A DNA stretch of 64,000 nt, taken from assembly GCA_027627225.1 (NCBI GenBank), contig CM051028.1:27084912-27148911 (forward strand), read 5' to 3'. A program made the translations under genes and the position numbers. The notes under the pieces are model-generated. The model was not told where the DNA came from, made no database searches, and worked only from the letters and a program-made list of their open reading frames with translations. Shown here piece after piece: positions 29,562-56,431 of this stretch; the first letter of the stretch is position 1; each line of letters opens with the position of its first letter. This DNA is from Congeria kusceri. Lineage: Eukaryota > Mollusca > Bivalvia > Myida > Dreissenidae.

Positions 29562-29797
29562 TTATGGCAACAATTCAGCAACAACCTTTTCTTTCTTCTT
29601 CATTTCTGTTTGGGCAATTGCCCACACCTGGTGTTTTAATTTCAACCAAGGTAATGATTTTAAGTTTGTATCCCCATTTGTTAGCTGGAACCTGACAACC
29701 TCTGCCTTACAAGGAGGCTTTTTCTTTCGCACGGCTTCTTGCACTAGAGGCTGCATCTGCACCTTCTCCAGGCTGGACCAGATTCTCTTTTTTGACA
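29562..29797 (-). CDS. Exon 20: terminal exon, helical/Myb-like domain
   Basis: 236 nt from acceptor 'aaaattttcag' to TAA at 29562-29564, phase 1. Encodes 'IWSSLEKVQMQPLVQEAVRK' and 'LKSLPWLKLKHQVWAIAQTE'. W..E..PLV and LPW..LKHQV resemble the C-terminal end of recombinase-like proteins in fish and molluscs, as I remember the family. Confidence 0.65.
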
Positions 29798-30521
29798 CTG
29801 AAAATTTTGCCAAAATGTAAATGATTAACAATCTAGAGGTTACTCTTTTAAACTTAAGACAATCTCAAATCCAGATTACACATCTGACATGCTATTGAAT
29901 CATACTATTCCCACCAACATGCTAGGTTCTTTAGCAGAGCCCAGAATTATAACAAGAGCCCCGGAAAACGGACGTCAAGCTCGACAATCCTCTGTTTTTT
30001 ACTGCATAAAGGCAGTGTTTATTCAAATACGGCTCTGACAGTGCACAGAAGACGACACATAGGTCATATTCAGGCAACCTTCCCGTCAGCTAATCGAATG
30101 CTAGCTTTCACGTTTTTGAGTTTTAATATATCAAAAAAGAAATTCTATGTTTTAACTGACCTACAAGTATGTGCAATTACAAAGAATCCTGTATTTTTAT
30201 AACTCACTGAAACTCCATAGCAATGACTTTGTGACTTATTAATATAAAACGAATAAAAATATCATATTTTTTTTACACGAAGTCTCAGTCTTCCATAGGT
30301 TGCATGATGCAGTTTAAATTTAGTGTCTGACAAATTAAGCAATCAAATGGCTAAAATTTAAATTTAGGTAATAATGGCGAGTTTAGAAATTCCCTTTATT
30401 GAAGAATAAAAAACTGAATGGGTTGTCCTCAGATCTTCCAGTTTAAGAAGATTGTGCGATTTAGTCAGAGCGGTGAACACCCTTAAATGCAGAAAAAGCA
30501 CAATGAATTCTTCAACAATAC

Positions 30522-30593
30522 CTTGAACCATTCTTTTCTTTGATGGTGGAGCCTTGCAGGGTACATCGTCCTCGTCAGTGTCCGACTGAAGAT
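30522..30593 (-). CDS. Exon 19: cassette copy C
   Basis: 72 nt, phase 1 to 1. Encodes 'LQSDTDEDDVPCKAPPSKKR'. The three cassettes sit in ~360-bp units that also repeat the surrounding intron ('tgccgcacaatgtctatgtc', 'gaaaatggaaatactgt'). Confidence 0.65.
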
Positions 30594-30883
30594 CTGAAAA
30601 GGAGAGCAGAATAGAACATAACAGATTCAATTTATGTTTCAAACAATGGTTTCATAAAAGAAAATGGAAATACTGTAGCATTTGTGCCAGCAAGAGAAAA
30701 TGCTTTTTTTTTTGTATTACAATTTTATCAAGAATTCTGAAGAAGGAAGACCATTTTCAAATGCCAACACATTTTTGTCTGCCGCACAATGTCTATGTCA
30801 AATGAAGGTCAAGGTCAAAGTACATGTCAGAGTGGAGAACCCTCTTAAATGCAGAAAAAGCACAATGAATTCTTTAACAATAC

Positions 30884-30955
30884 CATGAACCATTCTTTTC
30901 TTTGATGGTGGAGCCTTGCAGGGTACATTGTCGTCGTCAGCATCCGACTGAAGAT
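30884..30955 (-). CDS. Exon 18: cassette copy B
   Basis: 72 nt, phase 1 to 1, same splice sites as copy A. Encodes 'LQSDADDDNVPCKAPPSKKR'. 'APPSKKR' could act as a nuclear-localisation patch. Confidence 0.65.
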
Positions 30956-31247
30956 CTGAAAAGGAGACCAGAATATAACATAAATGATTCAATTGAAGTT
31001 TCAAACCGGTAAGTTTTTATAAAAGAAAATGGAAATACTGTAGCACTTGTGCCAGCAAGAGAAAATGTTCTTTTATTCGTAATACAATTTTATCAAGAAT
31101 TCTGAAGAAGGAAGACCATTTTCAAACGCCAACGCATTTCTATCTGCCGCACAATGTCTATGTCATGTGAAGGTCAAGGTCAAAGTACATGTCAGAGTGG
31201 AGAACCCCTTAAATGCAGAAAAAGCACAATGAATTCTTTCACAATAC

Positions 31248-31313
31248 CTTGAACCATTGTTTTCTTTGATGGTGGAGCCTTGCTGGGTACATCGTCCTCG
31301 TCCGGCTGAAGAT
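31248..31313 (-). CDS. Exon 17: acidic/basic cassette, repeat copy A
   Basis: 66 nt, phase 1 to 1, acceptor 'ctccttttcag', donor gtattg. Encodes 'LQPDEDDVPSKAPPSKKTMV'. Six bases shorter than copies B and C. Confidence 0.65.
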
Positions 31314-31949
31314 CTGAAAAGGAGACCAGAATATATATAATATAAAGGATTCAATTGAAGTTTCAAACCGTGTTTTTATAAAAGAAAATGGAAATACTGT
31401 GGCATTTGTGTCAGCAAGGGAAAATGCTTTTTTTTCTAAATACAATTTTATCCAGAATTCTAAAGAAGGAATAGAACATATTCAGACGCCAACGCTTGTC
31501 TGTCTGCCGCACAATGTCTGTCATGTGAAGGTCAAGGTCAAAGTACACATACCAACTGACAAGCTCTGTGGCAAGAAAGTTTTTGAATATGAAGACTCCA
31601 TCCAAGAATAAATAAGTTTCAAGAATTTGGATACCGGTATATCACTGTCAGAATTTCTACATATAGGATACATGTCTTAATTCCATGTAACAGAACTGAC
31701 ACCCTGTGCCTTTTCATAAAGTTTTCAAATTATCATTCCTGGTTTACAGAGTAGGTGTGACATCTGTGAATATACTGTAAATATATATGTTTTTTCAAAG
31801 CAATAACTTTTATCTAGAAGTACACAAGGTGAATGTTCAAAAAAATGTTGATACTGCACTCTGGTGATGTCAATAAAATTCTTTTAGAAGTATCCAATGC
31901 CTTTTATTATACCTCGATGTTAATAAGATTTAGTATAATAAGTAATTAC

Positions 31950-32009
31950 CAAAGTCCTCATCAGCACCATCCTCATCATTTTCTCCATCTTCTTCACTTT
32001 CTTCGAAAT
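31950..32009 (-). CDS. Exon 16: acidic exon
   Basis: 60 nt, phase 1 to 1, acceptor 'cattctgcag', donor gtaatt. Encodes 'FEESEEDGENDEDGADEDF'. Being symmetrical it can be skipped without changing frame. Confidence 0.65.
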
Positions 32010-33092
32010 CTGCAGAATGAACAATATATTGTTTTTATTCAACCACACCATCTCCAACAAGCTGGTGGTTGGTATAAGGACCACAACTCCAGCATTCTTT
32101 ATTCAAATCAATACAACAACTAGTTTGTTTTTGAAAAAAAAATGGCATGTCTTTTCCCACCACTGCCCAACGATCCCACCCCTTTGTAATGGGACTGGAA
32201 ATATGAAAAAAAATTACCTGGTGTAAGTCAACAAAGCAAAAAAATATTGACAAAATTGCATACTAAGCTTAATACTAAGTATTTTATGATAAATTTACAA
32301 AACAGTTCGAATTTTATATGCCTCTCGTAGATTTCATAACAGCTTTTGATCAAGGTGGTTCTTTTAAGAAATATGAAACATGGAGATATTTATTTACTAT
32401 TTATGCCCCATAGTCCCAGTGTGTATATAGTAATAATTTTGTTTCCAAATCATTTTCTTCTGATTTCTGATGTCTCAGATTTTCTGTATAGATTAAAAGA
32501 AATCAACAAAATCCTTTTTTTTAGATGAGTGAGTTTCTGATTAGGTTTCTATACATATTTATAGCAAACATTGTCCATTAAAATCTGGAGTCCCACATTA
32601 ATTCATCACTGTCATAAGAAACAAGGAGATAGACATTTCATTATTAAGTTTACGAGCAGTCAGTTTTTCAGCCAAATCATTTTAACAACTGTACCATATT
32701 TCTGTACTGAGCAATACATGAGAAATACATATTCACTTCTGACTCAGAATTTCTTTATGTTTTAAATTTGTTTTCATTACATTGCAAAATAGGCAATTCA
32801 CAACTAGACAAAAACACCTTAAACTAAACTAGCCCGTGAAAAGACCACTGATGCCAAAGACTAAATAATTAAGCACTGCTCTTAATGGACCACGGTCGGC
32901 GATCTCATTGGCTGAAAATGTAGGTTATATTCTTAAGTATCAATTCTCAATTTAGTATCTTCTGCCGGTACTGAGAAAATGTGTGGACACTGAGAATTTC
33001 TTTTTTTTTTTACGACATAACACACACATAATGGACAAGTAACACCTAATGCCTCACACCCACTATTCTTGTAGCTAGAAATCAGAAATTAC
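32010..33092. other. Intron 15, nothing further recognised
   Basis: AT-rich. Short frames without motifs. Confidence 0.5.
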
Positions 33093-33288
33093 CTTCAAGA
33101 TTGATGTCATCCAAGCTACGTCCTGCAAATTGAGCTGCCTTGCCTTCCTCTATGGACATGAGAAGTCGTGACACCTTTGCCAACTCTATCACATCGTCCT
33201 GAAGACGGTAAAAGCGTCTGTGCACACTCAGTTCGTGGCCCATGTGACGCGCCAACTCCCCCAATTCTGACTCGGACAGATTGAAAAC
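33093..33288 (-). CDS. Exon 15: recombinase-like core, GH and nucleophile-position Tyr
   Basis: 196 nt, phase 0 to 1, acceptor 'tttgttccag', donor gtaatt. Encodes 'ELGELARHMGHELSVHRRFY' then 'RLQDDVIELAKVSRLLM' and 'EEGKAAQFAGRSLDDINLE'. L-x-H-x-G-H followed 9 residues later by Tyr matches the LGH..Y end of tyrosine recombinases. Confidence 0.82.
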
Positions 33289-33536
33289 CTGGAACAAATG
33301 CAGCATTTACCAATAATGATATTGATAACATAACTAAGCTAGACTGCATGTATATAGGTAAGTTGCAGTCAATTTTATTCACATCATAATTCCTGAAAAG
33401 AAATAACTGCACATAAATCTCAAGTGCCATGTGATTAGGAAGTGGGTTTGTTTGTATGGTTTCAATGTGCACTGACAGAATGTACCAAAACATCATCATC
33501 TGCAACATATCACTGATAATTGACACTCTAGCTCAC

Positions 33537-33659
33537 CTGTGACACAGTGGCTAGGTATTTTCTTAGCTTTGTGCTGGTGATTCTTTCTGGGAATTGCAGC
33601 TCACAGGCCTGTACTGTCCTTCTGATGCAGTCACTTCCCCTCTTAAAGTTGCTGTCTCC
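33537..33659 (-). CDS. Exon 14: recombinase-like core, box B Arg
   Basis: 123 nt, phase 0 to 0, acceptor 'cctttcag', donor gtgagc. Encodes 'FPERITSTKLRKYLATVSQ'. This aligns with the H-x-L-R-H-x-x-A-T motif; the catalytic Arg is present, and the first His position holds Thr. Confidence 0.78.
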
Positions 33660-34738
33660 CTGAAAGGAAACAAGTAGTGACATCGAAGCATAAGAGAAAT
33701 CACTTGCTGCTGAACTGGTTTTGGAGTTTTCAAGAGTTACAGACAAGCTTTTGAGATCATTGGATTTATAACTAGTGTTGGTAATTGGACCCTAAATTAC
33801 AGGACTGATTTAAGGATACTGAAATGATAGACCATCTATTATTCATGTTCTGGTGAGTATTTACTCCAATGTTATTCATGATGTGCTTTCACAATAAAAT
33901 TAAATAATTTTACAGCATATATTACAACATCTAGTACATGTAAAAGTAATAATATTTAACTTTTGATTCTTTGAACAATCATTATATTTTTCGGCCCTAG
34001 GCTGACTGATTTCTATTTTGAATTCCGTTCTACTTACAGTGCTATGTCAAGGTCGTTGACATTGTTACAGAGCATTCTAATTGATCAGCAAAATTGTGTA
34101 CGGAGATATTTCCTGAGATTAGAACTTTTCCCTATTTATTGAGAATAATCAATTTCTATGCAGGTATATCCAAATGGCAAGCATGAAGTCATTCGATGGA
34201 TTTACTTTTAAACAATCATTTCCTTGCTAGCCTGGTTTCAAAGACTACAAATTTCGGAACCAAACAGCCATTTGATCTGTTTGTACTTTGGTACTGGCTC
34301 CTTTGGCGGCCTGTATGACTAAATACCAAACACGAGTCATATTGGGAAAAATGAATGAAGATTTCAAATGTGAATATTTTTTAATGGAACACAAAATGAA
34401 ATGAAAACACAGTTGACCGTAATTCTTCACATTCAAGATGCTAATGTAGTAGTGACCAAAATGTTGCAGTTTTCCTTTACACATTATAAAAACAACATTT
34501 AAAGTATTGGTGTCATTTATGTAAACATTTCATGTTATATGGCCAAGAACCTTTTCTAAAAATACTTCTTGATGTTTTCCTTTGTTGTTATATAATTTTG
34601 TAAACACAGAGAACATTAGGACGGAATTACCTAATTCATTTTCCAGACTTTTCACAGACTGTGGGAACCAAGTAACAAAGTTGAGAACAAACTAGAGTTT
34701 ATCAAATTTATAGTGCAAAGACTGTAACTCTGACATAC

Positions 34739-34883
34739 CTGTGCAAATACATGCGGATTGCAACTTTTCACCCCTCCTTCTGCCCTTTTGTCCACCAAAG
34801 CTTGTATGGCTGCCACCATTGTTTTGGTAAGAAGAACAGGCACGCGCTTGTACTGCTTTCCAACAACTTCTACCAAACTCATT
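34739..34883 (-). CDS. Exon 13: recombinase-like core, hairpin Lys
   Basis: 145 nt, phase 2 to 0, acceptor 'tttctag', donor gtatgt. Encodes 'SLVEVVGKQYKRVPVLLTKT' then 'MVAAIQALVDKR'. The pattern 'GK-x-x-K-R-V-P-V' fits the beta-hairpin Lys followed by 'vPl'. Confidence 0.75.
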
Positions 34884-35087
34884 CTAGAAAAGAAAACATT
34901 CAGTTAAATAATGTATCCTTTCGAAAAAAACAACAACAAGTGTATATTCTATTCCAAATCCTCCAACAATAATTTGATGGTTATAACCATTACCTGGAGG
35001 AATCCAAAACATAGTTAAAACCAGAAACTATGGTCAATGGTCTACGACTCTGATATCACTGATAAATAGAAGAAAACAAAGAACAAA

Positions 35088-35125
35088 CATCCCCCCCCCC
35101 CAAAAAAAAAAAAAAAAAAAAAAAA
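35088..35125. repeat. C run followed by A run
   Basis: About 12 C then about 25 A in intron 12. The A run may be the tail of a retroposed repeat; length may be unreliable in assembly. Confidence 0.85.
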
Positions 35126-35456: not shown

Positions 35457-35695
35457 GTCTTCATCAAATGCTTTTCTATTGGTTGCAATGTTGAAACAAG
35501 TTCTTGGTTTTCTCTTCCCCAAGCAGGTCGACCTACAAACTGTGAAATTAGCATCTTTGACCCCTCACTCGCCCGTCTTTTGTTGAAAAGTATGACTCTA
35601 GCGACTGTTACTTCTGCAAGCGCATTCCAGTGACTTGCGCATGGGCAGTCCAGCAACAAACTTGTCCTTTCAACGGTGGTAGTCTCTAAGTAGTT
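35457..35695 (-). CDS. Exon 12: recombinase-like core, box A Arg
   Basis: 239 nt, phase 0 to 2, acceptor 'gtttgcttcag', donor gtaagt. Encodes 'WNALAEVTVARVILFNKRRA' then 'SEGSKM'. The 'RR-x-S/G-E' segment fits the first catalytic Arg region of tyrosine recombinases. Confidence 0.78.
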
Positions 35696-35934
35696 CTGAA
35701 GCAAACAAGAATAAACTGTAAAGGAGCCATACTTATGGAGTATATATTTTATGGCAACTTTAACCCAACACTGATCTGCAGAAAAAATACAGCATCATTT
35801 GCGTACACAAGTTTTTTTTTGAAGATTTGACCTACTGACCTAGTTTTTTGAACCAACATGACCCACTTTTGAAGAATTTATAAAGACAAGCATCCTGACC
35901 AAATTTCATGAAGATCTGATAAAAAATGTAGACT

Positions 35935-36324: not shown

Positions 36325-37169
36325 CACATATTTCAAAAGATCCTCTGTCAATGGTAGAAGTACTTTCTTGTTATATTTCCTTTCTGATAGTGTGTGATGT
36401 GCAAGAGAGGAGACTGCTTCAGAGAATTCCTCAGTATACAGGCTGATAAACTGATCTGTTTACTGGGTGTAATACAATCATCAATATCAGCTGACTCTAG
36501 ACCAGTTAGAGATCTCAGTTCAATTTTGACTCTTCCAAGAATTCTTAATTTCTCTCTGACTTGACAAGCACGTTGGAGGCCAAGCTTTCGTAGTTGCACC
36601 TTTCCAAACAGTAGTAGCAGTTTGTCATTCTTCACAGCACGGCTGACATCGTCCATATGAAAGCGCTTCACAACATGATCAATGAATTCTTCACTGTCTG
36701 ATCCAAACACATCTGTTCCTAAAGCCCCTTGAAGTATGTATTCTGCTGAACGGACGCAATCACCTGCCGATTTTTTTACCTCTACTGCATTACTGACATT
36801 GATTTTCTCTTCTTTGAAAGAACAAGTTTTTACATGTCTCCAAAGTTCAACTTTTTTTAAAGAATGTCAAACAATATGGGCAAGGAAGATAATTGCTGGC
36901 AGAACTTCCCTTCTCTTGTGCTGGGCGCCTTCCAACATAAAAAACACCCTTCTTTTTTATCAACACACTAATGTTATGGTTGAAGTTTCCCAGGTTCCGG
37001 TATTTTGCAAACACCCTCTTTCTCTTGGCTGAATCATCTGCGGAAATTTCCTTGGATGCGGATGGCAGCTGCCCAATCTCTGGGACATCTTGATGAGCCT
37101 TTTCCAAATGTCTTGCCATTTTACTAATGGATTTTTCGCAGAAGAAACAGCAATGCTTTTTCGAGTAGT
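36325..37169 (-). CDS. Exon 11: C2H2-type fingers and recombinase N-terminal domain; two opposing frameshifts
   Basis: 845 nt, phase 1 to 0. The first finger is 'CCFFCEKSISKMARHLEKAH' (C-x2-C-x9-H-x4-H). Then comes 'RNLGNFNHNISVL' and a second finger 'CPYCLTFF..ELWRHVKTC'. After it lies a helical region with 'KLGLQRACQVREKLRILGRV', like the core-binding domain before tyrosine-recombinase cores. One extra A in an A7 run near 36857 and one missing A in an A3 run near 36463 move the frame out and back; total length is still correct for the splice phases. Real mutations or homopolymer sequencing errors are both possible. Confidence 0.72.
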
Positions 37170-39014
37170 CTCGTTATTCTGATTCTGTTACTGTCTGTAT
37201 AACAATTTCTGGAGAAAAAATTACTAAGGCATTTAGTATATCTGTATATGGTGGCAATCCTGTGCATAAATTCAAAATGTGTATGGTTTACATTCTTGGC
37301 ATCAGACGATGACAATGCAGACATGTATGAGTTTTTGAACAATTTACTCAGTTGGGTGGTACATGTACATCCTGTCGTTTGTAACTGTGTTTTCCCATAC
37401 TGACAGAAGAGGACCCAACCTTAGAATAATACATTTTCTTCATTGTTATTCCATCGTTGACAAAAAGGCTTTGTAATATATTTAACAATAGAAATGAAAG
37501 TCCATATAAGTTATGCAAATACACTCAACAATGAAGTTAACCAGTTTACATAATTTATGCAGATTCAAAAGAAAAATAAAACAAAACATGCTGCGTTCAG
37601 ATTTACACCATGCAGGCTTGCAACACTAGCATTTAAGCCTACCATTAAAGACTGAAAGACTCTCTGACTTGCAGGTTGGTATGGAAGTAATTGTTGAATC
37701 TAGAAATAATTTGGTCACATGAAATAATATCGGACAAAAGCTGTGAACAGTATTTTCCATGATGCCAGATTTACTGGAGTATATTCTCAAATCAAGAGAC
37801 AGTTTTAGAACATCTGTTGAGTCTGTGGATAATTCTTATTGATAGAAGTTATTAAAACACAACTGCACTAAGTGGAGACAGAAAAAGACAAGTGCATATT
37901 TTGTTTGATTGTGTAAAGTGATGAGGATAGATACACATACTTAACACCGCATTACTTAACCTGAAGACCTACTACAGGTAATATACATGATCTTTACAGG
38001 TCTTTGCGCGACCACATTGCCAAAACCATGCATTTGTTTCCTACAAGAAGACTCCATTTCCAAATGGACGGAATGTGCTGAGTAGTTACGAATGAGGAAA
38101 ATGGAAATCACTAGTGGGCCATGCCGGAGATGGCAGTGTTTTTATGAGTAAAAATGATCGCTGTTTCCTGAAGATCTTTGGAGTAACTGGGAAGAGACTG
38201 GATGGAGCTTAAAACATGACGTAGAATTGCCTATTCTTGTAATTGAACATTTTACAGTCTGGATGGTACTTTGCTGATTTTGATTTCCCATTTCAGGTCT
38301 GCTTTACTAAACTTGTTTATCTCCGCATGAAATTCACATATATTTATTTCTGCAAATTTCCTAGTTTTTTTTTCACACTTCTTCCCTGTTTTGTAATCAC
38401 TGCAATATACTACATAGGTGTTTACGTAAAAGACAAAACAGCAGTGTAAGGAATACATTTACGCAAGACTGGAGTAGAGCATGGAAAAGCACAGATACAA
38501 GATTGGGTTTACAACTTGATAAGGGTAAACTGTCTGAAAACACACGTGCATGTCCACATTTTCGATGTCAGATGTGAAGAATGTACACCATACTCAGTTC
38601 TAATTTTGGCACAGGATGGCTTCAATACAGAAGACTTGTATGTATATAATATATAGCACTGACACACTGGAAAAAAATACAATTGTGTGCCGAATTTCAC
38701 AACAAAAATGTAAAATTCATAAGGGACTTTTCTTGAGCCTTTTCACTATCTTCAGGAACCAATTTCTGTGAAGACATAAAATTTCGTGGGTACGAAATTT
38801 TGTGACAATTTTCCATTTCTGAATTTCATGGGTACATAAATTTGTTGGTTTTTCGTTTTCTTAACAAGTTGACAGAGCATGCTGTTATATTCCTTGAATT
38901 GAATTTGTGGATATGTCAACTCATGAAATCCCACAAAATGAACCCAGCAAAACTTATAAATCACAAGCAATTTGTACTAAAAAGCACATTGTTGCTGCAA
39001 TATGTAGGATTTAC
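37170..39014. other. Intron 10, nothing gene-like
   Basis: A segment at 38770-38860 ('tttcgtgggtacgaaattttg' and variants) looks like a diverged dispersed repeat. No exon was found. Confidence 0.5.
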
Positions 39015-39406: not shown

Positions 39407-39531
39407 CGGTACTTCAATTATTTCTGAGGCTTCAGAATCTGATACTGTTTCAAGGTGAAGATCACCTGCTGATCCTACTACATTCAATAGCAAGTCGTGA
39501 GGATCTGTATGGTCATCATGATCAATGAAGA
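39407..39531 (-). CDS. Exon 9: acidic linker
   Basis: 125 nt, phase 1 to 0, acceptor 'ttttaacag', donor gtgagc. Encodes 'FIDHDDHTDPHDLLLNVVGS' and 'ETVSDSEASEIIEVP'. The intron before it holds the 100-bp satellite. Confidence 0.65.
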
Positions 39532-39885
39532 CTGTTAAAACACCTGTTGGGCAAAATTAGTCTTGCATCTATTACTGACAAAAAACTAAGTATTAGACAT
39601 TACACTATTCTTAGCAGTATAGCCAAAGACCACAATCAACTCCATTCATTTATGAAGTCGGTAAACTACACTTGTGCAAAGTGCCTTGCAGTTCAGTACC
39701 TTGCAGTAAAAGAACAACTTTTCTACATGCAACACTTTGTCTCAACAACGTATGTTTTAAACTGTCAACTCTGAACAAAAGTGCCAAACTGTCGCAATAT
39801 TTGTCTGTCAGACATTCGATTAAAACACCACGAAGAAAATGTCTTATTTTAACTAACAAATACCAGTAAGACATTATCCATCAAT

Positions 39886-42740
39886 TTCATTCAGAGTCAC
39901 CAAGATTTGCATGACAGCATCACTTATACACTGAATAAATACAAAGATTATAACTACCCACTCACAAACTGTAGTTATTCACTCACTTCATTCAGAGTCA
40001 CCACGATTTGCATGAGAGCATCCCTACTACACTGAATGAATACAAAGATTATAACTAGCACTCACAAACTGTAGTTATTCACTCACTTCATTCAGAGTCA
40101 CCAAGATTTGCATGAGAGCATCACTTATACACTGAATTAATACAAAGATTATAACTAGCACTCACAAACTGTAGTTATTCACTCACTTCATTCAGAGTCA
40201 CCAAGATTTGCATAAGAGCATCACTTATACACTGAATGAATACAAAGATTATAACTAGCACTCACAAACTGTAGTTATTCACTCACTTCATTCAGAGTCA
40301 CCAAGATTTGCATGAGAGCATCCCTACTACACTGAATGAATACAAAGATTATAACTAGCACTCACAAACTGTAGTTATTCACTCACTTCATTCAGAGTCA
40401 CCAAGATTTGCATGAGAGCATCACTTATACACTGAATGAATACAAAGATTATAACTAGCACTCACAAACTGTAGTTATTCACTCACTTCATTCAGAGTCA
40501 CCAAGATTTGCATGAGAGCTTCACTTATACACTGAATGAATACAAAGATTATAACTACCCACTCACAAACTATAGTTATTCACTCACTTCATTCAGAGTC
40601 ACCAAGATTTGCATGAGAGCATCACTTATACACTGAATGAATACAAAGATTATAACTACCCACTCACAAACTGTAGTTATTCACTCACTTCATTCAGTCA
40701 CACCAAGATTTGCATGAGAGCATCACTTATACACTGAATGAATACAAAGATTATAACTACCCACTCACAAACTGTAGTTATTCACTCACTTCATTCAGTC
40801 ACACCAAGATTTGCATGACAGCATCACTTATACACTGAATGAATACAAAGATTATAAATAGCACTCACAAACTGTAGTTATTCACTCACTTCATTCAGAG
40901 TCACCAAGATTTGCATGAGAGCATCACTTATACACTGAATGAATACAAAGATTATAAATAGCACTCACAAACTGTAGTTATTCACTCACTTCATTCAGAG
41001 TCACCACGATTTGCATGAGAGCATCACTTATACACTGAATGAATACCAAGATTATAACTACCCACTCACAAACTGTAGTTATTCACTCACTTCATTCAGA
41101 GTCACCAAGATTTGCATGAGAGCATCACTTAAACACTGAATGAATACAAAGATTGTAACTACCCACTCACAAACTGTAGTTATTCACTCACTTCATTCAG
41201 AGTCACCAAGATTTGCATGAGAGCTTCACTTATACACTGAATGAATACAAAGATTATAACTAGCACTCACAAACTGTAGTTATTCACTCACTTCATTCAG
41301 AGTCACCAAGATTTGCATGAGAGCATCACTTATACACTGAATGAATACAAAGATTGTAACTACCCACTCACAAACTGTAGTTATTCACTCACTTCATTCA
41401 GAGTCACCAAGATTTGCATGAGAGCATCACTTAAACACTGAATGAATACAAAGATTATAACTACCCACTCACAAACTGCAGTTATTCACTCACTTCATTC
41501 AGAGTCACCAAGATTTGCATGAGAGCATCACTTATACACTGAATGAATACAAAGATTATAACTAGCACTCACAAACTGTAGTTATTCACTCACTTCATTC
41601 AGAGTCACCAAGATTTGCATGAGAGCTTCACTTATACACTGAATGAATACAAAGATTATAACTACCCACTCACAAACTATAGTTATTCACTCACTTCATT
41701 CAGAGTCACCAAGATTTGCATGAGAGCATCACTTATACACTGAATGAATACAAAGATTATAACTACCCACTCACAAACTGTAGTTATTCACTCACTTCAT
41801 TCAGTCACACCAAGATTTGCATGAGAGCATCACTTATACACTGAATGAATACAAAGATTATAACTACCCACTCACAAACTGTAGTTATTCACTCACTTCA
41901 TTCAGTCACACCAAGATTTGCATGACAGCATCACTTATACACTGAATGAATACAAAGATTATAAATAGCACTCACAAACTGTAGTTATTCACTCACTTCA
42001 TTCAGAGTCACCAAGATTTGCATGAGAGCATCACTTATACACTGAATGAATACAAAGATTATAAATAGCACTCACAAACTGTAGTTATTCACTCACTTCA
42101 TTCAGAGTCACCACGATTTGCATGAGAGCATCACTTATACACTGAATGAATACCAAGATTATAACTACCCACTCACAAACTGTAGTTATTCACTCACTTC
42201 ATTCAGAGTCACCAAGATTTGCATGAGAGCATCACTTAAACACTGAATGAATACAAAGATTGTAACTACCCACTCACAAACTGTAGTTATTCACTCACTT
42301 CATTCAGAGTCACCAAGATTTGCATGAGAGCTTCACTTATACACTGAATGAATACAAAGATTATAACTAGCACTCACAAACTGTAGTTATTCACTCACTT
42401 CATTCAGAGTCACCAAGATTTGCATGAGAGCATCACTTATACACTGAATGAATACAAAGATTGTAACTACCCACTCACAAACTGTAGTTATTCACTCACT
42501 TCATTCAGAGTCACCAAGATTTGCATGAGAGCATCACTTAAACACTGAATGAATACAAAGATTATAACTACCCACTCACAAACTGCAGTTATTCACTCAC
42601 TTCATTCAGAGTCACCAAGATTTGCATGACAGCATCACTTATACACTGAATGAATACACAGATTATAACTAGCACTCACAAACTGTAGTTATTCACTCAC
42701 TTCATTCCGAGTCACCAAGATTTGCATGACATAATCACAC
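39886..42740. repeat. ~100-bp satellite, ~28 copies, with 11-monomer higher-order repeat
   Basis: The monomer is about 100 bp: 'ttcattcagagtcaccaag', 'atttgcatgagagcatcac', 'tacactgaatgaatacaaag', 'ttataactacccactcacaa' and 'ctgtagttattcactcac'. Marker variants ('cattcagtcacacc', 'attataaatagcac', 'accacgatttg', 'cacttaaacac') recur in the same order 1107 bp apart (for example 40691 and 41798). So a block of 11 monomers was duplicated. The array lies within intron 8 of the SET/recombinase gene. Confidence 0.95.
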
Positions 42741-43155: not shown

Positions 43156-43485
43156 CTAAAACAATATTTGTAAACTTTATTGCCATCACTTAATTAAATC
43201 ATTGAAAATGATTGTTTTGGATGCATTCCAGACCAGTAAAATACAGAATATTGTATTTAATCGTATGATCACTCTGGTCAATTATATTAGTGTACCGATT
43301 TCACAACAAATAAATCAATAGCATGTTTGCTTCAGGGTATTTGAGAATTAAATTGGGTTATGCCATTAAGATCAGTCTTTTTTTATCAGTCACTGTTGAA
43401 ACACCCTTATTCTGAAACTGTGGAATGTTGAAAGCTAATGAATCTGAGCAAGTTGGATCCTAGTTTCACACAATCCCTGCCCTAC

Positions 43486-45159
43486 CTTGCACTTTTCCTC
43501 TTTCTGAGCCTTGATCTCAGGAGTTGCGAGTTCTTCCCCTTGCCGAGTCTTGATGACCTGAGCGAGGTAGACTTTTCGTCTCTGAGCTTGATCATGTCCC
43601 AATTTCTGAGCCCCAATCTCCTCAGCTGTGCCATATTCCCCTTTCTGAGCCTTAATCTCCTGAGCTGTGCAACTTTCCTCTTTCTGAGCCTTGATCTCTA
43701 AAGCTGTGTCAACTTTCCCTGTCTGAGCTTCGATTTCCTGAACTGGGCCACCATCCTTTTTATGAGCCTTCATCTTATGAGCTGGATCATATCCCCCTTT
43801 CTGAGCCTCAATATCCTGAGCTGCGTCACGTTCCCCATTCGGAGTCTCCATCTCCTGTACTTGGTCATCTTCCCCGATCTGAGCCTCGATTTCCTTAGCT
43901 GTGACACCTTCACCTATTCTTATCTCCATCTCCTGTGCTGGATTTTGTACTCCTTTCTGAACCTCCATCTTCTTAGCTGGATCTTGTCCCCCTTTCTGAG
44001 CCTCCATCTCCCGAGCTGAGTTATCTTCACCTTTCTGAGACTCCATCTCCTCAGCTGGATCTTGTCCCCCTTTCTCCGCCATTTCCTGAGACTGGTCATA
44101 TTCCCCTTTCTGAGCCTCGATCTCCTTAGCTGAGACATCTTCACCTATCTGAACCTCCATCTCCTGCGCTGGATCTTGAACCCCTTTCTGAACCTCATTC
44201 TTCTGCGCTGGATCTTGTCCCCCTTTCTGAACCTCCATCTCCTCAGCTGGATCTTGACCCCCTTTCTGAACCTCAATCACCTCACCTTTCCGATCCTCCA
44301 TCTGCTGAGCTGGATCTTGTCCGCCTTTCTGAGCCTCCATCACCTCAACTGGATCTTGTCCCCCATTCCGAACCTCCATCTCCTCAGCCGGATCTTGTCT
44401 ACCTTTCTGAGCCTCAATCTCCTCAGCTGGATCTTGTCCCCCATTCCGAACCACCATCTCCTCAGCTGGATCTTGTCCCCCTTTCTGAGCCTCCATCTCC
44501 TCAGCTGGATCTTGTCCCCCTTTCTGAGCCTCTATCTCCTCAGCTAGATCTTGTCCCCCTTTCTGGGCCTCCATCTCCTCAGCTGGTGTCACAACCTTCA
44601 CCTATCTGAACCTCCTCCTGAGCTTGATCTTGTCCAAATTTCTGGGCCTCCATCTCTTCAGCTGTCACACCTTCATCTATCTGAACCTTTATCTCCTCAG
44701 CTAGATCCTGTCCCCCTTTCTGAACCTCCATCTCCTGAGCTGGATCTTGTCCCCCTTTCTGAGCATTTGAGCCCTCCATCTCCCCAGCTGTATCTTGTCC
44801 CCTTTTTTGGGCTGCCATCTCATCGGCTGAATCTTGTCCCCCTTTCTGGGCCACCATTTCCTGAGCTGTGTTATCTTCCTCTTTCTGAGCATCCATCTTC
44901 TGAGATAGGTCATCTTCCGCTATCCGAGCCTCAACCTCCTTAGCTGTGTCACCTTCACCTTTCTGGGCCTCCATCTCTTTAGCTGGATCTTGTCCCGATT
45001 TCTGAGCCTTCGTCTCCTGAGCCGAGTTATCTTCACCTTTCTGAACCTCCATCTCTCGAGCTGATGCCTCAATACACTGTGCTGGGTCATCTTTCTCTAT
45101 TCAAGCCTCGATCTTCTGCGATGAGTCATAGCTCCCTTTCTGAGCCTTGATCTCTCGAG
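43486..45159 (-). CDS. Exon 7: ~40 tandem copies of a 13-codon repeat
   Basis: 1674 nt encoding an acidic repeat of the type 'AEEMEAQKGGQDP' (39-bp unit), with variants such as 'AQEMEVQKGVQDP' and 'AKEIEAQKGEYDQ'. Predicted helical and highly charged; no known domain. A TGA at 45101-45103 stands where other units have CGA or CGG (Arg). An inserted base near 44590 shifts the frame. The exon ends at donor gtaggg in phase 0. Its length is one base more than a multiple that would fit its phases, as expected from the single +1 shift. Confidence 0.72.
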
Positions 45160-45829
45160 CTGAAAAATAGTTATCAACAAGTCAATGAGGATTGCAGTGG
45201 CAATACAAAAGTTCCCTACCGGTCTACAGCATCATTATTTGCAACGCTTTGTCACTACATGCAATTAAGAATATTTATTGAAAACTTTAACATTTTTTTA
45301 AGTTGAACAAGTATCATTAACCTGGCTTAACTACTTTTTAAAGTTTAGCAAAATCCCATTTTTAGTCTTTCTTTTTTTTGCATTTCTGTTACCATAGCAA
45401 ACACAATTTCCAAGGTATCAAAAAGAACAAACCTACAAATTATATTTCAAGAATTTGAACAAATTATTGCAACTGCTCATGAAGATGTCATATAATGGTT
45501 TCCTGACCTATTCCAAAGCCATTCTTACATTTTTGTTTGTGAATTACAGTATCTATAACACAACTAAGAACAAGTAGAACTATCAGGAGGCGAGTAGTTA
45601 TTGGAGCACACATTGGCATGGGCAGAAATTTGCATGAAAAATAAGGCCTGTCAATAAAATTGATTTATGATTTAACTGTGTGGAATTTCTATAGGAATTC
45701 AGACCAATAAGGAAGATGATGGTTATTTATTGTCTTTGATTTAAATGATAATGTTTGTGCCCTAGTTTATACAAAACAAATTCTGATTTGACATGTAACT
45801 GCTGATAGAATTATTAAGAAACTAGAGAT

Positions 45830-46853: not shown

Positions 46854-46917
46854 CTTTTCCCATGGAAGCTCAGCCAAACCATAATCATAGGTTATTTCCT
46901 CTCCAACTTCAATATCC
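46854..46917 (-). CDS. Exon 5: SET domain end with catalytic YDYG
   Basis: 64 nt, phase 2 to 0. Encodes 'DIEVGEEITYDYGLAELPWE'. E-I-T-Y-D-Y-G contains the catalytic Tyr of SET enzymes. The donor (gtattg) is weak. Confidence 0.8.
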
Positions 46918-47914: not shown

Positions 47915-48031
47915 CTTATGGCAAACAGTACAAGCTGTCCTTGAATCTCCTTCATCGATGCATTTCTTTCATTTTTGTTACCGTGGTTAACTAACCTCCC
48001 CAAGCGGCCTGATTCCCTGGAGGCATCAGTG
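47915..48031 (-). CDS. Exon 4: SET domain core with NH motif
   Basis: 117 nt, phase 2 to 2, acceptor 'cttaatttcag', donor gtatgt. Encodes 'CTDASRESGRLGRLVNHGNK' and 'QGQLVLFAIR'. The cofactor motif N-H-S is N-H-G here. 'DA-R-x-x-G-R-L-x-R-L-N-H' is close to KMT5A (H4K20 methyltransferase). Confidence 0.88.
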
Positions 48032-49212: not shown

Positions 49213-49363
49213 CATAATTTCTTTCCTCCAGAGGTAAAGAAGAAACGAAACCCTGTTGGAATACATTCCCGCCTCTCCCCTTCGGTTGCAGAAATTGTTT
49301 CTCCTGCATAGTGCAGGAGAAATGCCCCAGCACTCCTCCACTGGGTTGTAACAATTCCCCTTC
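49213..49363 (-). CDS. Exon 3: SET domain, N-terminal half
   Basis: 151 nt, phase 1 to 2, acceptor 'gtctctttag', donor gtaagt. Encodes 'GAFLLHYAGETISATEGERR' and 'FRFFFTSGGKK'. Corresponds to the 'G-x-F-x-x-E-Y-x-G-x-x-I' and Arg-Glu region of KMT5A-type SET domains. Confidence 0.85.
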
Positions 49364-50660: not shown

Positions 50661-50663
50661 TAA

Positions 50664-51640
50664 TGATGTCTGTGGACAGCGCTCAACTATTCGGATCCTT
50701 GTCACAGACAAACTCTACATGTATGTATGACCAAGTTTCATTGAAAGTTAGAATCACAAATATTAAAAGTAAGATATAAAGTAGCACACATATTTTTAAG
50801 TATATTTTAAACAAAATCTTCTTTTAAATTATAGCCAACTGCCAGAATTTGAACTAAAAATTTCCTAGTCATACAGGGATATAACTTGTATCTAGGCCAT
50901 ACAGAGTTTCCTAACCTCATAGTGCTCTGGCCCTGAACACTAGTGTGAAACTTGTATAAAGTAAAAGGATTGAACAGCTTTCGAGATACTGCAACCTGCA
51001 TCAAAATTTTAACTTAAAATTTGCTGAAGAACTTAAAACATCAAATTCTAACTCAGGGGACATTAATTTATGTCTAGGGCCATACAGAGTTAGGTAACCT
51101 AACTGTGACAGTCACAACACTTGTGTGATGTGTCAAATCAATTTATGTTTTTTTAGATACAGCAACTTGCCACAAAACTTTATCTTTTCTATGTCAGTAA
51201 CATACTAGTAACATATACCAAGGGCCATACAAAGTTACAGGACGTGTTACATCCATGCATTTGTTTATAAATTCTGGAAGTCTGTAACTTGACCTTGAAC
51301 AGTTTTAAAGTTATTTCCATTTTCCACAAACTTTTTTGTGTACAAAGGGCAATAATTCTGCAAGTATGTTTGCCAGTGTTGTAGGACATGTCACAGGCAA
51401 GTATTTTTGAATCAGAAGCAGATTCTGAAAAATTTGCGACTTGTATCTCATAAAGTCTTTAAATTATATCCATTATATCCATTTTATGAAAACTTCATCC
51501 AAACTTCTATGTTTAATAAAGAGCAACAATTCTGCAGTATGTTTACAAGAATTATGGGGACTTGTAACAGGCAACTATTTTGTAATCATAAGCAAGTCCT
51601 AAAAGTCAGAGGCAATTAAAGGGGCCATACCTTTCGTGCA
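50664..51640 (+). repeat. Modular dispersed repeat, related copy 2
   Basis: Head 'gtctgtggacagcgctcaac' is like that of 46970. Modules repeat 'gggccatacagagtta', 'gtgtgaaacttg' and 'agatac.gcaacttgcc' at ~150-170 bp. The tail is not clear. Confidence 0.6.
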
Positions 51641-51785
51641 ACAGAAATATACATTAACAAGCATTATGGTAAAATTGTTATAAACTATTTGAAATGAGAA
51701 CACAAACATTCTTTTAAATTTTAAACTTGTTAAAATCCACATAATAGATGTTTAACGGCATGCCAAATTACTATACGTAAATTAG

Positions 51786-51822
51786 AAAATCTTTTTTGAC
51801 TGTCATAGTCAAAAAAGATTTT
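51786..51822. repeat. Perfect 15-bp hairpin
   Basis: 'aaaatcttttttgac' and 'gtcaaaaaagatttt' around a 7-nt loop. Confidence 0.9.
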
Positions 51823-51982
51823 ATCAACTATTACATTTGGCAAACAAATGCCTCTGAACATAAATGCTATTTTGTTATTCTGCAATATTTTGTGAGTAGG
51901 TTGAATTGTGCTTTGTAATTAAAATGTCTGAGATTTATAATTGTATCACTTTTGAACAGTTTAAGTTATTTCTATTTTATAA

Positions 51983-53210
51983 CAAGAGCTGTCGGAGAAC
52001 AGCGTGCTTGACTTTTCTTGTGCTTGTCAGACTTGCTAGCTTTTTTTCTAAACCAATCTGTCCTGATAATATTGTCGCCAATTAACCAGTAAAAAGTTAT
52101 TTCATTTCTCAAGTTACTAAATAAAAAGCATTTTTTTAAATTTTCAAAACAGTGACCTAGATCTTGACCCCACCAATCATGTGTAATGTAATGAAATGTC
52201 TCTCCAAATGCAGTCCCAAGTAAAATATTGCTTTAGGGTATCTATATATGAAAAAATCATTCTTGAGTAACAGAATGGAAATCTATTCTGTGGGAATGTA
52301 AAATGTCTAAGTGTAAAAAGGCCCCAAATTTTGACATATTTTAAACAAGAGTTATCAAAGTTGGCCTATGAATTTATTTTAATATCAGAAATAAGTATTT
52401 AAGTTTGAATGAAAACTCTTTTGTCATTCCTGAGAAACAAGCAGACTGAAAAACTTCAAACTTCAAAAATAGCTGGCATATAAAAGTCTAAGTAATAAAA
52501 AGGCCAATAACTTTACAAAATTAAAACACAAGTTACCTAACATGACAAATGAGTTTATTTTCATATGGGGTATAAATGTTTAAATTTAATGCCTCAAGCC
52601 ATTCCTGCCACACTAGCTTACGGAAATTTTAACTTAACCAAATAGCAGTCAAGGTAATTTTCTAAGTGTAAACTTTCCCTATGGGTTCATTTTAATTTAG
52701 GGAACTAATGTTTCATGTTTGAATAAAATCCCACAAGCCATTCCTGAGATACTAGCTTACCGAAAAACTTCTACCTGCCAAAACAGCTTGCACTATTACT
52801 ATTAGTTTCCAAGTTAAAAAAAGCCCCTAATTTTGACAAATTTCAAATTAGTTACCAAACTTGGCCATTGGTCATTTCAATATAAGCAACTAATGTTTCA
52901 AGTTTGAATAAAATCCCACAAGCCATTCCTGAGATACTAGCTTACCGAAAAACTTTAACCTGCCAAAATAGCATGCAATGTAAATTTTCTAAGTGTAAAA
53001 AGGCCTATAATTATGACAAATTTCAACCTAGAGTTACCAAATTTGGCCCATGGGTTCATTTTAACATGGGAAACAAATGCTTGAAGTTTGAAAGGAATCC
53101 CTCAAGCCATTCCTGAGAAACTAGCTTACCGAAAAACTTAAACCAAGGCAGACGCCGACGTGAGTAGAATAGCTTGCCTTTTCTTCGAAAAGTAGACCTA
53201 AAAACTAGAC
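51983..53210 (+). repeat. Modular dispersed repeat, 'acaagagctgtc' family, copy 3
   Basis: Head 'acaagagctgtcggagaaca'. Four to five ~150-200-bp modules follow with 'gccattcctgaga', 'actagcttaccgaaaaactt', 'ctaagtgtaaaaaggcc' and 'agttaccaaa.ttggccc'. Tail 'gacgccgacgtgagtagaat' to 'gacctaaaaact'. Fills intron 2 up to exon 2. Confidence 0.82.
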
Positions 53211-53267
53211 CCAATGCAAATAGCGAAGTTAATTGTATGCTCCGATCATGGGTGTATTAAAATTTAC

Positions 53268-53366
53268 CTTTCCCTGGAAAACACTTGATTTCAAACCCTG
53301 GTGGGTCATCATCCTTATGCAGCCATTGTTCAGCTTCGCTTACTGGCTTTACTCTTTTAGCACGAC
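53268..53366 (-). CDS. Exon 2: entry to SET domain
   Basis: 99 nt, phase 1 to 1, acceptor 'gatttcag', donor gtaaat. Encodes 'EAEQWLHKDDDPPGFEIKCF' and 'PGKG', the strand that opens the SET fold ('..GFEIKCFPGKGRGI'). Confidence 0.75.
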
Positions 53367-54149
53367 CTGAAATCCAAATCTTGATAAAGCAGTCTGCTTA
53401 AGCACACTTTGAAGCTTGCAGGCCTTTTTCTGAACATTTATAGGAGGGACCCTAGAAAAAGTTCAAAATATGCATGCCATTATACAAAGTGGCAGGGATA
53501 CTAACTGATAATTGTAGAAAAACTTATGAATCCCAATGGACTCGCGCCTTTTAAAACTATGCGTCCCAGAGAATTTTTATGAGTCCCGTGGAATAAAAAA
53601 TGACTAGTTCTAGAACAATTTAATCAAGTAAAATGCCATAGAACCATACTTTATAGAAATAATAAGGGAATAAGGTACATAAATGACAAAACTATAAGCT
53701 TAAAATTAACACTATGGCATTAATTGTTCAGCATCTAGCACTTGTCATATTAAGAATTATAACAAACACCGTCGCTTTTGACATACATGTCGCTCACAAA
53801 AAACATGCAAATCTAGCACGTGCGCGTTTCCCATGGTAACGTTCCATGTCAATATATGGAACATGTTAACTTTTATGTAGTCAGTCGAAATTTCAAAGAT
53901 CTATATTTTCATCTTCTTTTGTCTGTACACTATTTAATTTATCTATTTCGACCTTCTATCTATATAATTATCGAAGCAGACGTTAGGAACACCCTGTCAA
54001 TAAGGGAATTTTCATTTAAATGTTGTCTTTTTCCTAAAGTAAAGCAGATCATATATGATTTTAATCTAGTCTACAGTTTAAAACTATATAGTATAGCCAG
54101 CATATTTTTTACCTTATATAGCAGTCGCCGCTTAATGTGTCTTCCCCTC

Positions 54150-54365
54150 CCATGGTTTTTTCTCGGGTTTAGGGGAAAAGGCCTGGCCTTTAATTTTGGG
54201 GAAAATTACACGATAAAAAGTCCAGAAAGGGAAAGAAATTGTAAGTGTAACTTTGAATTTCGGGGAAAGGTGCACGATTTTAAAGAAATTTTCTGGGGGA
54301 AAGGGGCCTTTTTGCTAGTGGAAGCGGCCTTCATAAGGCCCCTTTGATATAAGGAAAAAAATCCC
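54150..54365 (+). repeat. Dispersed repeat, copy 2 of pair with 28685-28890
   Basis: Same ordered words as copy 1 ('ggcctggcctttaatttt', 'gggaaagaaattgtaagtg', 'aaaggggcctttttgctag'). A related end ('ccccaggccccttccccta') follows at 55308-55325, with the SINE palindrome between them, which suggests nesting. Confidence 0.85.
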
Positions 54366-54831
54366 TGCCTTACGAACTTTTTTCCTTCCTTGAAAAAAAT
54401 CCCCTCCTGTATTTACAAAATTTTTAACATTAGATCGGCTGTTTGTTTGATTTTTATAATTTTACGACATTAAACGTGTATAAACCCGGTTTATTATCCA
54501 TACAAAAATGAAATCGGGCGTGCTGGGCAAAAGGAACGATTTACAGCATAACAAACAAATGTATCACAATTGGAAACACTACACCGGTAAAATTCAAAAA
54601 CCTATATTGTACTATGGGTCTAAAATTTGAGATTTACATGATTCTTATGACTAATGAAAAAGCGGAAGTATAAGGTTTATAAGGTCTTAACAACTAATAG
54701 TAATTTTGTATATGGAGAAATTGGAAGAACAAATCTATGAACAGTAGACCTCTAAAATTTAGACTAAATGCAATCAGATACTGGTTCAAAGTGTATTCTT
54801 TCACATCATGTATTTTTGTACATTGTAAAAT

Positions 54832-55160
54832 ATTCCCATTGTGGCTTGGGATTTTTGCAGCTGGGTTACAATGGCGCCCAACGTAAAATAACCATCTGTG
54901 GTCTGCACTACATCCCACAGATGTCAAGGCAGAGGAAATTCGTGGAAGAATTTCATACATGGAGGGAGAGTATCTTCCACGAATTTCCTTCTGCCTTGAC
55001 ATCTGTGGGATGTCGTGCAGACCACAGTGGGTAATTTTACGTTGGGCGCCAATGTAACCCAGCTGAAAAAACCCCAAGCCACAATGGGAATTGAACCCGG
55101 GACCTCCCGGTTCATAGGCAAACGCTCTACCGCGTCACTATAAAAGCTAACTCTTATAGC
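54832..55160. repeat. Long palindrome made of two inverted SINE copies (family D)
   Basis: 54832-54949 and 54973-55091 are inverted copies of ~118 bp with few mismatches around a ~23-nt spacer ('gcttgggatttttgcagctg' against 'cagctgaaaaaaccccaagc'). The right copy continues into a tRNA-like head on the minus strand at 55092-55150 ('gacgcggtagagcgtttgcc', 'gggttcaattccc'). The left copy lacks a head. Confidence 0.88.
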
Positions 55161-55989
55161 AAGGCAGTATAAGTGTCCTTTATACATCACCCTAAAGTTA
55201 CAGTAATATTTGGCAAAATACAATGTTTTTCATGACGTAAAACAAGTGTTTTATTATATTTTCCCCTAATAAGTGATTGTCGTGCGAAAATATCCCCTCC
55301 TCAAAGGCCCCAGGCCCCTTCCCCTAATGGTGAAAAAAAAACACTGATAGCTCCTAGTCACGTAATAGTCACATTGATGTGCAACTTGGTTTTTATTAGC
55401 ATTCTTGGTCAAAATCGGGATAGTCTGGCTGCTGCCTCAATCTGATTGGTTGAAGTGATAAACAAGTTGCCATAATTGTAAGAAATTTCTACATACATGA
55501 AGATTAATACACAAGTTTAAATCGGAAATAAAAACTTATATTGGGTAATTTTCTGCACTTTTACAGCAGATTTAGTGTTGTTTATGTAAAGTATGTTGAT
55601 TAATAACTCTATTCTAGCAAATTATAAGAATTTATGAAATTTTTAATTTTCAAGTTTCCACCGCATAAATGGTCTTTCGCGGATTAGACGTTGCAGCGAA
55701 TTTAGCCCCATATAAAAAGTAGCTCTAAATTCGTTGCACGTGTGATTTAGTAGACTAATAGTGTCTATAGACTTTTGTTTATTGTTTGTTTATTTGGGTT
55801 TAATGGCACTTAAACACAGGAAAAGGTTATATCGTGTCGTATGCTAAATATGAAGTCTTAGATTTTAGAATACAAGTTAATCTCTTTTAAGAACCGGGTA
55901 TTGAATTATGATGTTCAATGGAACTGTTGTAAAGAGCTCTTTCAATGTATGTAATGTATTTACTAGGAAACTATAGACTACTGACTCAC

Positions 55990-56431
55990 CTAAAACTTTG
56001 ACTTCTTTAACTTTTGGATTCTTTTTTTGCAGTAATGTAAACTCTTTCCATCTTAATATTAGAGGATCTGTAGCTAATTTTTGCTCCCATGTTAAACTTA
56101 ATGATTTGGCACTTCTATTGGCATTGCATGCCAATTTTTTTGAACTTTCAGTCGATGTTGTGCTAGCTTAAAAAAATGGAGAACACTGGCTGTCACTATT
56201 ATGACACTTAGCACTGCAATTCGTGTCAGATCCTGTGTTATTTTCACTATATTGTGTAACAGAATCAGACCTGGTACTACCACTACTAATACTAGATCTA
56301 GTGTTAGTAACTTATATTTCGCCGTTATCAGTGACCTGGTTTGAATACAACGTATTTTTAGTTTTTAATTTCTGAATTCGTTTTCTTCTGATTTGATAAT
56401 CTTTTCTGTTCGATTTGTTATGTTTTCCCAT
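55990..56431 (-). CDS. Exon 1: N-terminal region, two in-frame stops
   Basis: The frame from the ATG at 56431 ('MGKHNKSNRKDYQIRRKRI') is basic, then Ser/Thr-rich. It is cut by TAA at 56312-56314 and TAA at 56168-56170. All of it lies in one frame with the conserved end 'EQKLATDPLILRWKEF'. The donor gtgagt leaves phase 1. An ATG at 56134, after both stops, could start an intact product. Confidence 0.6.

Follow-up and report, generated by a model that had tools for sequence, protein, structure and literature searches.

The Congeria kusceri window (the whole stretch of 64,000 nucleotides analysed here) was proposed in a first-pass annotation to hold an intact gene of 20 exons, joining a KMT5A-type SET domain to a tyrosine recombinase (YR) core in one protein. 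This raises the questions of whether such a protein exists and whether the locus belongs to a mobile element, a host gene or two neighbouring genes. Our preferred reading, with a probability of about 0.58, takes the locus for a decayed copy from a family of YR mobile elements that carry a KMT5A-type SET domain of their own.

The SET and YR halves of the locus

The features identified, all on the minus strand, are given in Table 1. When joined, the four SET exons (53366-46854) have AG/GT edges and matching phases, and give 143 open codons. The product matches Pfam PF00856 (2.2e-15) and keeps the motifs GRG, LGR-NH and YDYG, and the SET piece scores 97 bits against profiles made from homologues. 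Human KMT5A (PR-Set7, SET8) is its top match, both in the PDB (5.5e-19, next family 6e-07) and by sequence, so that the KMT5A-type SET domain of the annotation is confirmed. An ATG is present at 56431; no first coding exon was found upstream of 53366 by homology comparison, and candidate N-terminal exons near 56.4 and 56.1 kb had no homology support. This is consistent with the homologues, which mostly begin about 35 residues ahead of the SET core (median start of SET in fused homologues, residue 35, n = 95 proteins; Mya P0163 agrees).

The four YR exons (35695-33093) are likewise in phase with AG/GT edges, and give 234 open codons. All six RKTRHY positions of the R-K-TxxR-H-Y signature are present, and the score against the homologue-derived profile is 266 bits; these results uphold the recombinase core. 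Identity to the Ruditapes homologue is 89% across 229 columns. No recombinase family was matched when the joined YR exons of the window were scanned against Pfam.

Table 1. Coding features and repeats of the SET-YR locus in window coordinates.
Feature	Position	Strand	Basis
Pre-SET exon, 99 nt	53268..53366	-	AG/GT, phase-compatible with next SET exon; aligns to Mya P0163 N terminus
SET exon a, 151 nt	49213..49363	-	63% identity to Mya P0163 here
SET exon b, 117 nt, contains LGRLVNH	47915..48031	-	68% identity to Mya P0163 here
SET exon c, 64 nt, contains YDYG	46854..46917	-	Joined exons match Pfam PF00856
Exon of 39-nt tandem repeats, acidic, EMEAQKGGQDPAE-like, probable linker	43438..45170 (edges approximate)	-	Repeat register alone; without close homologue
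Possible acidic linker exon, 137 nt, tentative	39407..39543	-	AG/GT edges; weak P0001 match (31%, E 1.2)
Exon with zinc-finger pair and most of core-binding domain	36325..37208	-	tblastn with Ruditapes P0001; exon reading
YR exon with Arg I (codon 35575-35573)	35457..35695	-	Exon reading, catalytic alignment
YR exon with candidate catalytic Lys (codon 34858-34856)	34739..34883	-	Exon reading, catalytic alignment
YR exon with TxxR (Thr 33572-33570, Arg II 33563-33561)	33537..33659	-	Exon reading, catalytic alignment
YR exon with His 33237-33235 and nucleophile Tyr 33210-33208	33093..33288	-	Exon reading, catalytic alignment
362-nt unit, three in tandem, each with exon-like piece DLQSDxDEDDVPCKAPPSKK; linker before C-terminal part	30464..31547	-	
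Last exon, possible C-terminal domain, ends at stop	29562..29797	-	By eye; weak profile match

Lesions in the window copy

The natural exon at 37208-36325 has the acceptor ATTTTTTCTCCAG, and its zinc-finger part scores 97 bits against a homologue-derived profile. It contains an in-frame TAA at 37176-37174, and its frame shifts at an A7 run (36858-36852) and returns at 36459; there, residues 555-615 of Ruditapes P0001 have no counterpart, a gap of approximately 184 nt. In the 39-nt repeat exon there is a TGA at 45103-45101 and a frame shift near 44602-44582. The apparent disabling differences are thus five in total (two in the repeat exon and three in this first YR exon), and they contradict an intact 20-exon gene; the whole open model was rejected on its stops and frame changes. 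AG/GT edges and matching phases hold for the four SET and four YR exons; the annotated fit of every phase does not hold for all 20 exons together, since phase fails at the two exons just described. Also, on the minus strand no stretch from 29.5 to 56.5 kb stays free of stops for more than 388 codons (1,164 nt), and therefore the open 1674-nt exon of the annotation does not exist. The window copy is very probably disabled, and probably a pseudogene.

Alternatively, the gene could be intact in the animal, the stops, frame changes and missing stretch being assembly or sequencing errors. One frame change falls in the A7 run, no lesion affects the SET exons or the last four YR exons, and the YR identity to Ruditapes is high. 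However, two stops (the in-frame TAA and the TGA), a frame shift away from any homopolymer and a loss of around 184 nt are improbable jointly, and we consider this explanation improbable as compared with decay.

At the 3' end, the C-terminal profile of the family gives a weak 7.7 bits on the last exon, against 5.3 for an unrelated piece of the window, and no BLAST match to a C-terminal domain was obtained in the window. A direct repeat of about 200 nt (28689-28881 and 54150-54361, 80% alike) flanks the coding part; it was rejected as the element ends, being too diverged and resembling a dispersed repeat whose end is rich in A.

The fusion family

Among the 169 retrieved homologues (isoforms counted), 95 have SET and YR together, with SET ahead of YR in every one of the 95. 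The fused records come from coral, bivalve, echinoderm and teleost, and their domain order is SET (KMT5A type), repetitive acidic linker, zinc-finger-like pair, core-binding domain, YR catalytic domain and C-terminal domain. The order and strand in the window agree with those of full-length homologues. The SET-YR architecture is almost certainly real: one protein joining both domains exists in the family, though not as an intact gene in the window.

Two independent neighbours, a KMT5A paralogue at approximately 53-46 kb and a YR gene at 37-29 kb, would fit the weakly supported linker exons between the halves in the window, and also some bivalve records, as SET is missing from Ruditapes P0001 and scallop P0003 as annotated and YR is missing from Mya P0163, which has SET. 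Against this, the same order and strand are found in single proteins of coral, bivalve (Tegillarca P0152, SET incomplete), echinoderm and fish. In addition, SET and YR distances correlate, pointing to a joint history of both domains (trees with SET rows of 86 residues or more and YR rows of about 150 or more). A pair of independent genes is very improbable.

Relationships of the SET domain

The SET domain is N-terminal in the fusion family and C-terminal in four retrieved KMT5A-type proteins (P0084, P0086-P0088). In the SET tree the fusion-family and KMT5A groups split at 100/99, and under midpoint rooting the KMT5A rows lie between two other groups, so that this tree does not establish a single origin of the fused SETs. 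The SET domain is somewhat more probably an active methyltransferase than not. Fish SETs have ND in place of the NH motif in 28 of 35 rows, and YNYG in place of YDYG in 12 of 35; both substitutions count against the preferred reading, of a mobile family.

SETMAR is known only from primates, and its DDE transposase follows a different kind of SET domain. The fusion family differs from it in having a tyrosine-recombinase fold, a KMT5A-type SET and a range of several phyla. The two are alike in that a SET domain is fused to a DNA-transposition enzyme, which in SETMAR is the Hsmar1 mariner transposase (PMC2203978).

Relationships of the YR domain

A structural match to tyrosine recombinases had been set as a test of the annotation, and it was obtained on the model of the 442-aa scallop homologue P0003, not on the window copy. 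The predicted YR fold of this protein matches XerH and Cre over the core-binding and catalytic domains. The seven best Foldseek matches have modest TM-scores (0.30-0.45), and the rmsd is about 5 A, which counts against the preferred reading. The family has R, K, R, H and Y as do XerH, Cre and lambda integrase, to which it adds zinc fingers, SET and intron-containing animal genes. In an alignment of 62 YR-containing rows, selected from 163 proteins with isoforms removed, the catalytic string RKTRHY is exact in 53, and the His of the HxxR of tyrosine recombinases is Thr in 58, the latter a point against the preferred reading.

Pfam PF00589 was matched in four of 31 members (best 8e-5), and five fused proteins gave no match to it at E up to 0.1. 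When PDB sequences were searched with a profile of 31 rows, three matches came up with E of 10 or below, and a recombinase was not among them. Sequence comparison barely registers the YR, a point against the preferred reading, and its kinship became visible through fold comparison only. Among viral folds, the top matches (three at E up to 0.001) are to integrases and VLF-1, and PHROGs gave weak matches alone for four proteins (0.024 or worse). A viral origin was rejected, as the four stretches matched in viral contigs included no relative by tblastn.

Animal YR genes of the Crypton/DUF3504 type (KCTD1, ZMYM2-4, QRICH1, WOC) are in some cases fused to host domains, animal Cryptons lack a C-terminal domain, and domesticated DUF3504 YRs have lost the catalytic Tyr and Arg II, according to PMC3212892, in which "SET domain" and "methyltransferase" have no occurrence. 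Unlike DUF3504 genes as described there, the fusion family retains both residues; DUF3504 was absent among the best 25 of 28 Pfam families for 31 members. The annotation had offered a Crypton-like mobile element or a domesticated descendant. Both options stay live, and any kinship to Cryptons proper is tentative.

Mobile element or host gene

Near-identical copies of the family occur on different scaffolds of one fish, the shad Alosa sapidissima. The DNA of the window copy showed neither element ends nor empty sites or target duplications, which counts against a mobile reading. So do the introns in the genes of the family and the span of at least 24 kb of the one in the window, large for a Crypton. 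On balance, the family is somewhat more probably mobile, now or recently, than not.

The main competing explanation is a host gene family, in which an ancient single SET-YR fusion was kept as a chromatin or DNA-binding regulator and amplified by ordinary duplication, the catalytic residues serving folding, DNA binding or host recombination. The broad range from coral to fish, the introns, the joint history of SET and YR and the gene name rnf214 shared by two cyprinids are in its favour, as is the order of identities in the Alosa subfamily, which tracks the species tree as slow vertical descent predicts. It is weakened by the Alosa copies on several scaffolds, by the unrelated names on other copies (PAK1, NCK2a, nucleoporin p54) and by the retention of the catalytic Tyr and Arg II that domesticated DUF3504 YRs have lost (PMC3212892). 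We regard a host family as rather unlikely. If it is one, it is an animal family retaining tyrosine-recombinase residues beside a histone methyltransferase, unlike domesticated DUF3504 genes.

If the locus derives from a mobile family, as we prefer, this would be an animal transposon with its own chromatin writer, and a single protein would allow a test of self-shaping of insertion-site chromatin. Locating the element ends would fall to the zinc fingers and core-binding domain, and the catalytic Tyr would cut and rejoin DNA, by analogy with Xer and Cre. By methylating H4K20 or another lysine on a histone close by, the SET domain would open, protect or silence the site. More tentatively, and at less than even odds, the family may be an animal-wide YR transposon superfamily with a KMT5A-type methyltransferase in the recombinase protein, one that moves from chromosome to chromosome in present-day fish and perhaps across fish lineages, the mark preparing, protecting or silencing insertion sites.

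In the Alosa subfamily, identities are 96.6-98.3% within Cypriniformes, 96.3-96.8% for Alosa and 90.5-92.0% for the cichlid. These values are suggestive of a possible horizontal transfer between Alosa and Cypriniformes, which is unproven because monophyly of Cypriniformes is not rejected by the AU test (p 0.0645). The same order of identities fits slow vertical descent too.

Database records of the family

The annotation knew of no description of the fusion. It is already present in databases, from corals to fish, labelled "uncharacterized" or KMT5A; among the open-literature matches listed, no description of a SET-tyrosine-recombinase fusion was met. The labels KMT5A, KMT5A-A or KMT5A-B are carried by Holothuria P0093, Anabarilius P0135, Dissostichus P0052 and P0162. 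As some KMT5A-named entries belong to the fusion family, studies citing "kmt5a" copies may concern this family.

Domain architecture of the SET-YR family

Protein searches with the joined window protein and with the homologue P0063 (~7990 candidates with the most shared words scored in each) retrieved 88 and 83 partly overlapping proteins, respectively, and a search with the Mya SET retrieved seven; the combined set has 169 proteins. Using profiles built in this analysis, SET and tyrosine recombinase (YR) domains were found together in 95 of these 169, although the counts are not gene numbers, since the rows often represent isoforms of a single gene or truncated models. Among the 95, 79 have all five domains (SET, zinc-finger pair, core-binding domain, YR and C-terminal domain, CT), 14 lack CT and two lack the zinc finger. 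Another 42 have zinc finger, core-binding domain and YR without SET, and 32 have partial domain sets. SET lies ahead of YR in all 95, and the domain order is constant in all 79 five-domain proteins. Proteins with the complete order come from Acropora millepora (P0165 and P0166), Tegillarca granosa (P0152, SET incomplete), echinoderms (e.g. P0090-P0094) and teleosts. The Ruditapes protein P0001 as annotated lacks SET and the Mya protein P0163 lacks YR, an argument against a fusion shared by all bivalves.

The name "N-lysine methyltransferase KMT5A(-A/-B)" is carried by the SET-YR proteins P0093, P0135, P0052 and P0162 of Holothuria, Anabarilius and Dissostichus. A sea-cucumber sex-locus study reports two male-biased "kmt5a" copies within the candidate region (PMC9128100), and these may or may not be SET-YR. 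A zebrafish SET-gene survey gives, in its accessible part, setd8a and setd8b for the KMT5A class (PMC2200798). No prior description of the fusion was found in searches of an open-access library, Repbase and subscription papers being outside the scope. The closest analogues are Crypton elements and SETMAR (PMC2203978). In contrast to the domesticated DUF3504 genes, in which the catalytic Tyr and the second Arg have been lost (PMC3212892), the SET-YR family keeps both; "SET domain" and "methyltransferase" have no occurrence in that Crypton paper.

The Congeria kusceri copy

The first-pass annotation had proposed a 20-exon minus-strand SET-YR gene at 29562-56431. Its SET and YR exon sets are borne out, but stops and frame changes rule out the 20-exon open model. 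The four SET exons join into 143 open codons with the motifs GRG, LGRLVNH and YDYG, match PF00856 (Pfam, 2.2e-15) and have KMT5A chains as best PDB matches (5.5e-19 versus 6e-07 for the next family); the closest SET is that of Mya P0163 (63% over 118 columns). The YR exons give 234 open codons in which all six of R, K, T, R, H and Y are in place, closest to Ruditapes P0001 (89% over 229 columns). Both of these nearest relatives are bivalve proteins and point to a bivalve host. The last exon resembles the family CT profile weakly (7.7 bits), and BLAST for the family CT in this exon gave no match.

Features of the window
Feature	Position	Strand	Remarks
SET exons	53366-53268, 49363-49213, 48031-47915, 46917-46854	minus	AG/GT edges, phases compatible
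Exon of zinc-finger pair and most of core-binding domain	37208-36325		Apparent lesions relative to P0001
YR exons	35695-35457, 34883-34739, 33659-33537, 33288-33093	minus	In-phase joins
Last exon	29797-29562	minus	Terminates at the stop named in the first-pass annotation
Direct repeat, ~200 nt	28689-28881 and 54150-54361		80% identical, flanks SET-YR coding part
Tandem array	about 620-7366	minus	Units ~1195 nt, open frames 112-182 aa
Degenerate pogo/Tigger-like transposon	9686-11419	plus	HTH_psq and DDE_1 (7e-18), two overlapping frames
101-nt array	39886-42729		28 copies, 302-nt higher-order period
Inverted repeat	54832-55091		Arms 107 nt, 92% complementary, 46-nt spacing
Probable retroelement	59437-63846	plus	Gag-like 650-aa frame, zinc knuckle (1.5e-5)

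The phases, claimed to fit throughout, do not. In the 39-nt tandem-repeat exon, a TGA lies at 45103-45101 and the frame shifts near 44602-44582; both were deduced from the register of the repeats, since there is no close homologue over that exon. The zinc-finger exon has a TAA at 37176-37174 and a frame change at an A7 run (36858-36852), possibly an assembly error; the frame is restored at 36459, where P0001 residues 555-615 are absent. The longest minus-strand stop-free run in the region is 388 codons (1164 nt), so the supposed open exon of 1674 nt is impossible. Since homologues mostly begin ~35 residues ahead of the SET core (median of 95; also Mya P0163), the start placed at 56431 is without homology support. 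Because of five apparent disabling differences, we read the window copy, from its sequence, as a pseudogene.

Mobile element or host gene

We favour a mobile element over a host gene family, with a probability of about 0.6. Alosa sapidissima has 11 gene ids, on scaffolds of eight different lengths, forming two groups that are ~41-44% identical to each other and 72 to 98.8% identical internally. Between scaffolds, pairwise identity is as high as 98.4% (1251 aa) and 98.8% (755 aa), and five copies are nearly identical from the zinc finger through to the end. Over a 411-aa core, Alosa and three Cypriniformes share 96.3-96.8% identity, above the 92.0% of Gymnodraco and Trematomus in another subfamily. 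The post-YR linker of Phoxinus is closer to Alosa (92%) than to Anabarilius (86%), whereas its YR (99% versus 97%) and CT (92% versus 89%) are closer to Anabarilius. The tree nests Alosa with Phoxinus (support 94/90, node not starred).

A host gene family we consider rather unlikely. In an AU test, a clade of Cypriniformes was not rejected (p 0.0645), and the order of identities inside the Alosa-Cypriniformes subfamily is also compatible with the species tree. Element ends, target duplications and empty sites were not observed. Further records are annotated with the names of unrelated genes (PAK1, NCK2a, nucleoporin p54, rnf214), which may reflect insertion in or beside those genes, or merely read-through gene models. 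The ~200-nt direct repeat, present at two places only within the window, is probably a dispersed repeat, or could be an element end.

For the favoured mobile element, we propose that the zinc-finger pair acts with the core-binding domain to recognize the element ends, and that strand exchange, as in Xer and Cre, is catalysed through R, K, R, H and Tyr. The proposed role of the SET domain is to methylate neighbouring nucleosomes at H4K20 or another lysine, thereby opening, protecting or silencing the site; the CT may bind DNA or chromatin.

SET state and shared history with YR

The SET alignment has 35 rows plus human KMT5A, and includes the window, Mya and a few rows without YR. All 35 conserve the Asn of NH, both Tyr residues of YxYG, the Asp of CxD and the Arg of LGR. 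The His of NH is D in 28 rows and H in seven, the window among the latter, and the Asp of YDYG is replaced by N in 12. By these residue counts, the window SET retains the KMT5A pattern and fish SETs are somewhat altered. Pairwise SET and YR distances are correlated (r 0.825, 31 proteins; teleosts alone, r 0.715, 21 proteins; in either case none of 5000 permutations reached the observed value); species kinship alone also produces some correlation of this kind. Five KMT5A-type rows split from the remaining SET rows at 100/99; midpoint rooting places them between two other groups and thus does not establish a single origin of the fusion.

Other elements in the window

The 101-nt array lies in the intron separating the SET and YR halves. 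In the retroelement, the gag-like frame is followed by overlapping frames of 487 and 339 aa, as if frame-broken. The ~1195-nt array has six copies of its best repeats; four of the six are 93-97% alike, or better depending on the part compared. One of its frames has a weak AID/APOBEC-like deaminase likeness (XOO_2897-deam 0.0012, SNAD4 0.0053, NAD1 0.0091), all matches being under the Pfam cut-offs.
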